From: Syntrophobacterales bacterium
GTDB taxonomy: Bacteria > Desulfobacterota > Desulfobaccia > Desulfobaccales > 0-14-0-80-60-11
Direction of reading: 5' to 3'
Length of the DNA stretch: 40,464 nucleotides
Assembly: GCA_023512475.1 (NCBI GenBank)
Contig: JAILZL010000029.1
Coordinates: 1-40,464 of the forward strand
Shown: positions 28,579-32,808 of the stretch, piece after piece
Numbering within the stretch: the stretch's first letter is position 1
Layout of the letters: the number at the start of each line of letters is the position of its first letter
Position numbers and translations under genes: made by a program
The notes under the pieces: model-generated
Seen by the model: the letters and a program-made list of their open reading frames with translations, nothing else
Told to the model about the DNA's origin: nothing
Databases searched by the model: none

Positions 28579-29319
28579 TCAACGGGGTTTGGGCACCGGG
28601 TAGGAGGAGGGGTGCCCTCCGGCTTCCGGGGGCGGCGGCAGCTCCGGCTCGGTGGGCAGGGGCTCCCCCACCTGGCGGGGCCGGCCGAAGCGGGCCCCCT
28701 GCACCAGGAGATTGCCGCTTTTATGGATGACGGTGCGGTCGTCCAGGATGATGAGCCCGTGCCGCTCCGAAATCTCGGTATAATATTGATATTTCATCTG
28801 TTTCTGGTTGAGGCGGTATTTGAAGAACAGGAAAAAGAGCATGTAGACGGTGACGATGACCCCCAGTCCCGCCAGGATCCAGCTCAGGAGGATGAAGGTG
28901 TTGTGGCCCAGGGAGGCCAGCCAGGACATGATGTAGTCCAGGTGGTAGATGGCAAAGACCGTCACCAGCAAAAGAAAAAGGATGGCCAGAAAGGGCAGCC
29001 GCCGCACCTGGCGCACCACCGCATCCAGCTGGTTTTCCGCCTCCCCCTCCAGGGTGTCGCTCTGCTCCTCCCCCAGGAAGTAATTGAAGCCGGTGATGAT
29101 CACCCCCATGAGGAAGGTGACCACGATGGGAAAGGCGAAGGCCACGAAGAGATATTCCTTCCAGGGGAAGGGGGTATAGACCCGGTGGTATTTATCGTCC
29201 GCGGACCACAGGGCCACCACGATGAAAATGACAATCTCCAGGATGCCCAGGAGCTTGAGGTAGTCAAAGAAGAGCTTCTTGCGGTCGGCCTTGGTGAAAT
29301 ACGAGGCAAGCTTGGACAT
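28579..29319 (-). CDS. Four-helix membrane protein of unknown function
   Basis: A 246-residue protein. ATG 29319 has a GAGGGA site. Four predicted membrane helices lie near residues 18-35, 52-80, 110-140 and 145-178 (ILEIVIFIVVALW; VAFAFPIVVTFLMGVIITGF; ILFLLLVTVFAIY; WILAGLGVIVTVYMLFFLFF). The C-terminal part is soluble, with LIILDDRTVIHKSGNLLVQG and a Pro-rich tail. There are no Cys, heme or known catalytic motifs. The family is not recognised. It lies downstream of dsrE on the same strand, and its own weak promoter is possible. Confidence 0.7.
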   Translation of the reverse strand: MSKLASYFTKADRKKLFFDYLKLLGILEIVIFIVVALWSADDKYHRVYTPFPWKEYLFVAFAFPIVVTFLMGVIITGFNYFLGEEQSDTLEGEAENQLDAVVRQVRRLPFLAILFLLLVTVFAIYHLDYIMSWLASLGHNTFILLSWILAGLGVIVTVYMLFFLFFKYRLNQKQMKYQYYTEISERHGLIILDDRTVIHKSGNLLVQGARFGRPRQVGEPLPTEPELPPPPEAGGHPSSYPVPKPR

Positions 29320-29351
29320 GGGGATCCCTCGGGGGCAGATCTGCCAGATAC

Positions 29352-29380
29352 TAGATATCAAAGCCCCCGGGAGGGGTCAA
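29352..29380 (-). promoter_or_regulatory. Possible sigma-70 promoter of the four-helix protein gene
   Basis: On the minus strand: TTGACC, 17-base spacer, TATCTA. The -35 box is good and the -10 box is poor. The leader to ATG 29319 would be about 26 bases. Confidence 0.3.
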
Positions 29381-29431: not shown

Positions 29432-29797
29432 TCAGAAGGTGAAGACCTTGTAGGCGGGGTCGGCCATGAGTTCCACCAGCTTGGTGGCCGGGGAGATGAC
29501 CGCGCCCTCGATGAGGTCGTCGGGACCGATGAGGCGCTTGTCAGCGCAGGCCTTGCAGACGTGGATGGGGGCCTTGGCGGCCAGCAGGCCGTCCAGCATC
29601 TCCTTCATGTGCTCGCCGGTGGCGGCCCGGATGCCCTCGGCCACCCCGATCTGGGCCCAGTGGATGGAGTCGTCGATGAGGAAGATCTCCACCGGGTGCC
29701 CGGCCTGGGCCATGAGGTTGGCCAGCTGCATGGCCCGCACCGCCCCCCCGGCCTTTTCGAATCCTTTGGACATGATGAACAGAAACTTCTGCGCCAT
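29432..29797 (-). CDS. DsrE/DsrF-like sulfur-carrier family protein
   Basis: A 121-residue DsrE-fold protein. The N terminus is FLFIMSKGFEKAGGAVRAMQLANLM. Two Cys, C81 and C84, sit in HVCKACADKR, the position of the active-site Cys in DsrE and YchN-type proteins. The end reads ELMADPAYKVFTF. Members relay persulfide sulfur or act as redox or small-molecule-binding proteins. Here it is 171 bases downstream of the multiheme cytochrome gene on the same strand, with two GC-rich repeats between. An AGGAGG site precedes ATG 29797. The exact reaction is unknown. Confidence 0.82.
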   Translation of the reverse strand: MAQKFLFIMSKGFEKAGGAVRAMQLANLMAQAGHPVEIFLIDDSIHWAQIGVAEGIRAATGEHMKEMLDGLLAAKAPIHVCKACADKRLIGPDDLIEGAVISPATKLVELMADPAYKVFTF

Positions 29798-29957: not shown

Positions 29958-29968
29958 GGTGACACATG

Positions 29969-32554
29969 TCAGGCTTTCTCCTCCGGCGGCGCGGCGCCTT
30001 TTTCCTGCTCCTCCCGGGCGACGATCTCTTTGTACCACTCGGAGTGGTGCTTCCTGGCCCAGGAGCGGCTCACCTTGCCGTCCACCAGGGCCCGCCAGGT
30101 GCCGGGGTTGGCGATGGTGCCCAGATAGGCGTGGGCGATGACCGCGGCCACGAACACCACCGCGAAGAAGCCGTGGATGGTGGAGAGGAGACAGCTCAGG
30201 CTCAGCGGCAAGCTGGTCTTGAAGATGAGCAGGATGCCGGTGAGGCCCATGATGAGGGTCAGGATGGCGGTGAACCAGAGGAAGATCTTCTGGCCGGCGT
30301 TCAGCCGCCCGGCGGGCACTTCCACCTCCTTGCCACCCAGGTAGCCGCCCCGCTTGGCCAGCCACTCCCGGTCATAGGGGGCGAAGCGGGCGTCCTTGGC
30401 CCACAGCGCCACCGCCACGATGCCCGCGGCCACGAAGATGAGCCCCGCCACCCAATGCACCACCACCGCGACCGCAGGAGAGCTGAAGAACATCCGGAGC
30501 ATGGTGACGTTGTTGAAGAAGAAGATGTAGCCGGTGAAGGCGAGCACCAGGAAGGACAGCATGCGGATGAGGTGGGTCCAGCGCTCGGTGAGGTTGAAGC
30601 GCTCGATCGTCGCCGGCTCATAGGTGAAGTCCGCGCCCTTGGGGCCCTGGCCGGTGTAGTGCAGGGTGAGGCCGAAGACCAGCAGCAGGAGCAGGATGCT
30701 CACGTAGGGGGTGAGATAGGTCTGGTGGAACTGGTTGACATAGAAGACCCAGGGCTGGCAGCCGAAGAGGCGGCCGGAGCTGATGGTGACGGGTTTGCCG
30801 TCGGGCCCGAACATGTCGGTGACAATCTGGCCCTTGAACATGTGGGCTTCGGTGGAATGGCAGTCGCCGCACCCCCGGGCGCCCAGGGCCAGGCTGGCCG
30901 GGGCGACATTGTGGTTGATGTTGAAGCCCTCGGAGTGGCCGGCCCAGGTGGTGTCCGGGCCGCTCACCAGCTCGCCCTTGTCATCCAGGTAATACATCAT
31001 GCCCCCCTTGTGGAAGAAGGGCTTGACCTGCTGGAAGCGCTTGTTCCCCTGCAGGGTCTCCTGAAAGGCCAGGAGGGCGATCCTGATCTGCTCCGGGGTG
31101 TGGAGCTCGGGTTTCTGGGGGTTTTTGGGCTGGAGCCGCTCTTTGGCCTTGTCATAGCCCTTCTTCAGCTCCCGGGCGAAGAGGGGGTAGTTGATGCCGT
31201 CCTTGTCCTGATTGGTGAAAAAGACGCTCTTGAACCGGTTCACCGGCCAGAGTTTGCCCTTCTCATCCCGCTGGTAGGAAGGCCGCCAGGTGAACTCCTC
31301 CCCGATTTTCTTGGCTCCGGGCGGGGGCACCATGGTGGGGTAATTCACCATGGCGCCGGTGGTGACATCGAAGCCCTCAAAGCCCGCCCGGTGCACCGCC
31401 GGAATGTGGCAGACCTCGCAGGCCAGCTTCTCCAGGTGGTTGGGGCGGATGGAAAGGTGCTGGGGCCGGGGCGCGCCCATGTAGCCCTGTTCGTGGCAGG
31501 CCTGGCAGTTCCGGAAGCCCACGTGATCCAGGTCATCCCGCACCGTGGAGACGTTTTCATCCCCCTTGGCGAACTGGTGCTGCAGTTTGGTGATCTTGCG
31601 GGCCGGGTCCTCGATGGCGGGGTGGCAATGGGCGCAGTTCATGCCCTGGGCGTTGTGCACGTCGTGATTGACCCGGTCGTTCCAGGAGAAGCCCCGCTTC
31701 TTGACATCGGAGATGCCGTGGCAGAAGACGCAGTTCTCCGCCGGGGGCGGGTAGGACAGATCCAGGACGATCTTGCCGTCGTCGTTGAACAGCCGGCGGT
31801 TGTAGGTGACCTTGGGCTGCTGGCCCTCCCGGACAAAGCCGCTCACCTGACCGATGCCGGAGGCGGCGGTGCCGGCCCACTTGTAATTCAGCATCTTGAG
31901 CTGCCGGGTGCGCTCGTTGAAGTTGTAGCCCGGCAGGTGGCACAGGAGGCAGTCGGCCTCCACCACGCCGGTCTTGTCCCACTGGCTCTGGTAATAGTCG
32001 CCGTCCAGGGTCTGGGCCAGCTGGGGCTCGGCCTTGAGGCGGGTATCATAGCGCCGGCCGTCCCGGTCGAATTCCAGGCCGCCGCCGCCGGGATGGCAGG
32101 AGCCGCAAGTGGGCAGGTTCATCCCCTGGGGATCCCGGGGGCCGACGCTGATCCATTCAAAGGTGGTGAGGTCAATCTGATCCGGATGCTCGTTTTTCTT
32201 TTTCGCCAACTGGCGAAACGAGGGCGGTCAGAACTTCCCCAGCATGCCGTCGGACAGCACCCAGGGCTTGGTTTTGCTGAAGTCGTCCCGGATGCGGTCC
32301 CAGCCCTGCTGGAAATGGAACCCCTTGGTGATTTCGTCATAGTTGTGGCAGGCGCCGCAGGTCTGCCGGGGACTGTAGGGCTGGTCGGCATTCTCTCCGG
32401 TTAAGGGGTTGATGATTTTCCCGTCCTCGGTCTTCAGGTGAAAGGGCACGCAGGCCCGCTCCCGGGCTCCGAGCTCGGGGGGCAGGAGCACCAGCCAGGC
32501 CGCAATGACGGCCAGGCCGCCTCCCAGGGTGAAAAGGAATCTTCTCCGGTTCAT
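29969..32554 (-). CDS. Octaheme cytochrome c / cytochrome b fusion, probable selenoprotein (Sec109)
   Basis: Read as one frame of 861 residues across a single in-frame TGA (32230..32228, residue 109). The N terminus MNRRRFLFTLGGGLAV is an RR-type signal with a membrane helix; an AGGAGG site lies upstream. Eight CXXCH motifs start at residues 66, 150, 202, 275, 307, 350, 379 and 562. From about residue 610 there is a membrane part like the FdnI/FdhI cytochrome b, with His-bearing helices (RWTHLIRML, VVHWVAGL, STIHGFFAVVF...IAHAYLG) and the end WARKHHSEWYKE. The protein can move electrons between menaquinone and extracytoplasmic partners; direction and partner are unknown. If TGA were a real stop, the second part (from TTG 32209) would have no export signal and no ATG, though it carries seven c hemes. 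Sec insertion is inferred, not proven. Confidence 0.8.
32189..32230 (-). promoter_or_regulatory. UGA codon with candidate bacterial SECIS hairpin
   Basis: After TGA (32230..32228) come nine bases. Then a perfect 7-bp stem follows: TTTCGCC (32218..32212), loop AGTT (32211..32208), GGCGAAA (32207..32201). An outer CTCG/CGAG pair (32222..32219 with 32192..32189) may extend it. The apical loop begins 16 bases past the codon and has G at its second position. Both fit the published bSECIS rules, from memory: distance 16-37, and a G among the first two loop bases. Confidence 0.65.
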
Positions 32555-32808
32555 GGCCCGAATCCTCCTGGGGAAGGGATGGGTAGCTGCCATTCTTCGG
32601 TTCTGGCGGGGGGCTCCGGCCTGCGACGGCGGGCCGGCCCCCAGCCTCCCCGTCTTCATTGCGCCCGTGGCGGATCTTCCCGCTTCCCGGGCTGCATCCC
32701 CCGGGTCCTTACGGGTCTGCGGTCCCCGATGGTCCGGAGGGGAAGGTTCTCCGGGGAGGGACCCGGCCCCCTCCCCTCCCTCCAAGGTTTTGGTGTCGCC
32801 GGACCGGC

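Follow-up and report, generated by a model that had tools for sequence, protein, structure and literature searches.

Does the in-frame TGA that divides a multiheme cytochrome gene of a Syntrophobacterales bacterium mark a broken gene, or is it read as selenocysteine (Sec)? The gene lies on the minus strand of the window, i.e., the whole analysed stretch of 40,464 nucleotides (contig JAILZL010000029.1, assembly GCA_023512475.1), in a 2.78 Mb draft genome of 73 contigs that is 99.99% complete. Two minus-strand frames of 108 and 746 codons lie in the same frame, separated by the TGA at 32230..32228 and six sense codons beyond it, exactly as stated in a preliminary description made from the sequence alone, and translation of 29969-32554 yields 861 residues, with codon 109 as the only internal TGA and a terminator TGA at codon 862. 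The same description assigned an export signal and one c-heme motif to the first half, and seven heme motifs and a cytochrome b to the second; both claims held, the signal being seen as a hydrophobic N-terminus. Its claim that the downstream frame has no ATG is to be qualified, as a TTG start candidate exists at 32209. The features are as follows.

29969..32554, minus strand: proposed complete selenoprotein gene of 861 residues, octaheme c cytochrome plus cytochrome b, with Sec very likely at 109 (translation; homologues colinear across both halves)
32564..32569, minus strand: ribosome-binding site AGGAGG, 9 bases before ATG 32554 (sequence)
32465..32554, minus strand: N-terminal signal or membrane anchor, about residues 1-30 (read from the sequence; cleavage site not predicted)
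32345..32359, minus strand: heme motif 1, CGACH, residues 66-70 (C66, C69, and H70 invariant in the homologue alignment)
32228..32230, minus strand: UGA, very likely read as Sec, codon 109, context GKF-U-PPSFRQLAKK (Sec or Cys in most homologues)
32201..32218, minus strand: bSECIS stem-loop with the sequence TTTCGCC-AGTT-GGCGAAA; its apical loop lies 16 nt past the UGA and has G as its second base (sequence, conservation)
32093..32107, minus strand: heme motif 2, CGSCH, residues 150-154 (invariant in homologues; aligns with heme 2 of octaheme tetrathionate reductase, OTR)
30857..32107, minus strand: heme motifs 2 to 8, starting at residues 150, 202, 275, 307, 350, 379, and 562 (translation, homologue alignment)
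29999..30607, minus strand: cytochrome b domain of the formate dehydrogenase gamma type, residues 650-852 (PF01292; TIGR01583, 135.5 bits vs a cut-off of 115.85)
29432..29797, minus strand: DsrE/DsrF-like protein, linked gene behind the cytochrome gene (PF02635)

An 812-codon antisense frame (29966..32404, plus strand) overlaps the cytochrome gene; it is probably a GC-rich shadow frame, and there is no evidence that it is a gene.

It is very likely that residue 109 is Sec, although neither selenium nor protein has been measured. This reading is strongly supported by the recurring TGA, the Cys homologues, the stem-loop, and the Sec machinery; the conservation, the stem-loop, and the machinery, together with the domain content, are shown by computation.

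The homologue search took in 59 related genomes and found colinear homologues with one internal TGA. In each of the 16 near genomes that extend to the site, the TGA aligns with residue 109 (identity of 69-94% over the aligned stretches, on both sides of the TGA) and is flanked by GKF-U-PPSFRQLAKK or, in one of them, GKF-U-SPSFRQLAKK. Distant homologues carry Sec in the contexts GGRW-U-TPAP, GGRY-U-SAAP, GKW-U-PPSARQLA, and GAW-U-PPSYRQLA, and others are uninterrupted with Cys at the site (GGNW-C-SPAP, GGKW-C-PTAP). The exchange of Sec and Cys in a matching context is seen in GGRW-U-TPAPVFRQLAKK vs GGNW-C-SPAPLYRQLAPK. Within a tree of 40 sequences, Sec occupies two clades and Cys two, and well-supported branches force at least two switches. 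Three members of the tree, from two of its clades, have neither residue at the site (L035, L088, and L053; Ser, Thr, or other), and Sec/Cys is therefore not indispensable in every member. The preliminary description had proposed Sec insertion at residue 109 (GKF-U-PPSFRQ), to be supported by Cys or Sec in homologues and refuted by an unrelated residue; with those three exceptions the outcome is favourable, and the claim is supported at the level of computation.

The stem-loop directly behind the UGA provides further support. The perfect hairpin had been described beforehand with its loop 16 bases from the TGA and a G at loop position 2, which held exactly, and the bSECIS criterion, i.e., a stem-loop that closely follows the UGA and carries a G early in its apical loop, is fulfilled. 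The Gln-Leu-Ala codons behind the UGA are CAG-TTG-GCG, forming the hairpin, in every one of the 27 distinct Sec loci, whereas elsewhere in these genes TTG accounts for 10.5% of the Leu codons (127 of 1208). The 27 loci cover many genera and families; they are not independent, and hence no p-value is given. In the five Cys loci tested, the codons are CAA-CTG-GCC or the residues differ, and the hairpin is absent. Furthermore, a clade with a two-codon insertion after the UGA retains the element intact with the loop at 22 nt instead of 16, and in a clade where Pro replaces Arg the stem forms again around a loop of five bases. Where the loop has four bases, the fifth stem pair is T-A in 19 cases, C-G in two, and G-C in one, and is unpaired in one. 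Mean folding z against synonymous shuffles is -1.8 for Sec loci and -0.6 for Cys loci, the latter mean being dominated by one outlier; the z-scores of individual sequences are modest, and an Rfam scan of the window gave no match at gathering thresholds. Being conserved with compensatory changes in Sec loci and lost in the Cys forms tested, the hairpin favours the Sec reading.

The source genome is equipped for Sec insertion. It encodes tRNA-Sec (selC, 73.8 bits), SelB (361.5), SelA (620), and SelD (364.5), all above curated cut-offs, and a lack of sel genes, named beforehand as refuting the proposal, is thus not the case. The selD gene itself carries one internal UGA (L136), and three formate dehydrogenase-like matches (L140-L142) carry one TGA each, so that Sec use in this organism is wider than the cytochrome. 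TGA terminates nine of the ten window frames checked, the cytochrome gene included, and is therefore a normal stop in this genome. Matches to selB were found in 59 of 59 relatives, 55 of them above the cut-off; consequently, the presence of SelB cannot separate Sec carriers from Cys carriers.

Other readings of the TGA fare poorly. Decoding of UGA as a standard amino acid (Trp, Cys) through a variant code or leaky read-through, without Sec, has no specific support and is practically excluded by the use of TGA as terminator in nine of ten frames, the Sec machinery and the UGA-containing fdhA and selD genes, the conserved SECIS-like stem-loop, and the homologues with Cys, not Trp, at the site. 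In a second reading, two proteins are made, a monoheme of 108 residues and a heptaheme of 746 residues started at TTG 32209, which lies 18 bases behind the UGA and opens the second frame. Against this, the second part has no export signal, the Cys homologues are continuous, and TTG 32209 is a Leu codon locked inside the hairpin. Covalent attachment of c hemes requires an export signal. The reading of the second part as a protein of its own is rejected, in agreement with the earlier view that this half would not function alone, and hardly any room is left for it. Finally, the TGA could be accidental, i.e., a nonsense mutation, a pseudogene, or a sequencing error, which the preliminary description had named as the main alternative; it stands alone in a frame that is open everywhere else, in a draft of 73 contigs. 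However, the same TGA is found in dozens of genomes from independent assemblies across genera and families, the protein is conserved on both sides, and the synonymous codons behind the TGA are locked. Recurrence at one codon in dozens of genomes rules this alternative out as nearly as computation can.

With the Sec reading preferred, the protein can be compared with known cytochromes. Its nearest characterised relative, a distant one, is octaheme tetrathionate reductase, OTR (TIGR04315; PDB 1sp3), a reductase whose second heme is catalytic and Lys-ligated (PMC11024163). Both proteins have eight c hemes, and a profile of the window family (19 homologues) aligned by hhalign with an OTR profile (14 proteins) gives 99.2% probability and an E of 7e-20, with hemes 2-7 in order; hemes 1 and 8 pair with those of OTR only in a forced full-length alignment. 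By contrast, the window protein reaches only 29.4 bits with TIGR04315, far under the cut-off of 375, has a fused cytochrome b, and carries Sec in the context GKF-U-PPSFRQLA vs NNF-U-I, 41 residues from heme 2 vs 10 in OTR. None of the NCBIfam models tested covers the family (29 bits with TIGR04315 and 43 bits with TIGR04314, other members being similar).

In both families the Sec/Cys site falls in the interval from heme 1 to heme 2; counted from the first heme Cys, the distance is 43 residues in the window protein and 42 in 1sp3. OTR proteins of the same phylum often contain one TGA, which in the five mapped (L103, L106, L107, L111, and L113) gives NNF-U or NSF-U at the position of NNF-C in others; this Cys is Cys64 of Shewanella oneidensis 1sp3, by counting along the alignment, and is reported to line the OTR catalytic site (Mowat et al., 2004). 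Many further TIGR04315 matches also have one TGA, at a site that is unmapped. The equivalence of Sec109 and Cys64 is possible and remains a hypothesis only, because the spacing is similar but the sites are not superposed by hhalign. Forced alignment was considered as a proof of this equivalence and rejected: the full-length hhalign alignment places Cys64 opposite E133, not U109, and the claim was lowered to an inference. Furthermore, hhalign pairs K285 with Lys153 of 1sp3, the sixth ligand of heme 2, whereas it is the adjacent K286 that is invariant in the family. Outside the heme motifs, the homologue alignment contains six invariant His for eight hemes, in addition to K286. At least two hemes are thus without a conserved distal His, and it may be inferred, tentatively and on sequence grounds only, that at least two are not bis-His.

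The other known systems are more distant. MmcA of Methanosarcina (TIGR04314), an OTR-related heptaheme cytochrome, is matched weakly (43 bits vs a cut-off of 250); it is without heme 2 (PMC11024163), the motif of which is present in the window protein. ExtKL, the Sec pentaheme cytochrome of Geobacter (NF040886), is likewise a multiheme c cytochrome with one UGA-encoded Sec; however, it has five hemes, its Sec lies behind all of them in the motif IPDG-U, and the window protein gave no match to the NF040886 model. The C-terminal domain resembles FdnI/cytochrome b561 (TIGR01583, PF01292), exceeding the curated cut-off and matching 1kqf chain C, although FdnI serves a molybdenum enzyme and in the window protein the cytochrome b is fused to the octaheme part. 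In a PDB profile search the cytochrome b part matched FdnI alone and the hemes gave only weak hits to nitrite reductase, and an AlphaFold2 model built with 12 homologues was unusable (mean pLDDT 41, pTM 0.29). Separately, larger multiheme cytochromes of the phylum, with frames of approximately 1000 to 1380 codons, were observed at three loci (L039, L040, and L041, in genomes G048, G056, and G035); they have the same W-U-PPSxRQLA site and the CAG-TTG-GCG stem-loop of the window gene, and the two that were scanned gave no NCBIfam match.

A function may be proposed for the selenoprotein. SelB and tRNA-Sec would decode UGA 109 as Sec, guided by the stem-loop directly behind it, and the 861-residue product would be exported and would acquire eight c hemes, its N-terminus and the C-terminal cytochrome b membrane domain serving as anchors. 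The cytochrome b part would most likely oxidise menaquinol and hand electrons down the heme chain to a putative catalytic heme near the N-terminal end, with Sec109 (Cys in some relatives) at or near it and taking part in the reduction of a small oxidised sulfur or metalloid compound. The direction of electron flow, the location of the catalytic heme, and the role of Sec are all inferred. The explanation as a whole, one exported 861-residue selenoprotein acting as a menaquinol-linked periplasmic reductase, is very likely, its reductase function being inferred; when activity is considered separately, the balance tips only modestly toward a quinol-linked reductase. A bolder reading, in which Sec109 ligates a c-type heme or bonds substrate onto it as a natural selenolate-heme enzyme, is unlikely; under it, Sec/Cys could serve, in most members, one of the at least two hemes that have no conserved distal His.

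The gene neighbourhood bears on the substrate. In six related loci a DsrE-family homologue adjoins the cytochrome gene or lies one gene away from it, on either flank; TauE/SafE sulfite-exporter-type permeases occur nearby in other clades; and ArsR, ArsP, ACR3, low-molecular-weight phosphatase-like (LMWPc), thioredoxin, and DsbD-type genes occur near members of distant clades. Inferred from gene context, sulfur or metalloid oxyanion chemistry is thereby likely favoured; the neighbours differ by clade, with arsenic genes in the distant ones, and hence the substrate is not fixed. A 260-codon membrane protein without a Pfam match (28579..29361, minus strand) is also conserved near the cytochrome gene in several relatives. 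At one locus (L117; G044:C10:58000-72000), a Sec octaheme cytochrome gene of the window family adjoins a gene for Sec ExtKL, which owes its name to a selenite/tellurite operon of Geobacter (PMC5877670); two Sec cytochromes thus lie in a single arsenic-type cluster, which also holds ArsR, ArsP, ACR3, ArsE-like thioredoxin, porin, and DsbD-type genes.

The alternative that survives best accepts the selenoprotein and disputes its function, taking it for a quinone-reducing dehydrogenase or an arsenic/selenium oxyanion enzyme, not a sulfur oxyanion reductase. The arsenic-type genes (ArsR, ArsP, ACR3, LMWPc) beside distant members and the adjacency to ExtKL in genome G044 speak for it. On the other side, the linked gene in the window's own clade is DsrE, TauE/SafE occurs in other clades, and OTR is a reductase. 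This alternative is judged less likely than not, without being dismissed.

ExtKL and a TIGR04315 octaheme cytochrome, the latter on the strength of GenBank annotation alone, appear as selenoproteins in a 2026 review (PMC13188914), and Sec multiheme cytochromes as such were therefore already known. The preliminary remark that no described selenoprotein of this architecture was known is refined on this basis: Sec-containing OTR and ExtKL are already listed, whereas the window family and its fusion are absent from that list. The literature searched, which left subscription journals mostly outside, yielded no report of Sec in an octaheme cytochrome with a fused cytochrome b. What is new is a family of octaheme cytochromes, related to OTR and with a Sec/Cys site, that spans the phylum; it adds to the selenoproteome a multiheme cytochrome group covered by no NCBIfam model tested and extends Sec in octaheme cytochromes beyond the OTR family proper. 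As had been anticipated, gene callers would report two broken genes here, and standard gene calling would cut such enzymes into signal-bearing and leaderless fragments. There is a hint that selenium chemistry beside c hemes may be recurrent in the sulfur and metalloid metabolism of these bacteria, and the clade-wise exchange of Sec and Cys provides matched pairs for testing the role of selenium at a heme site.
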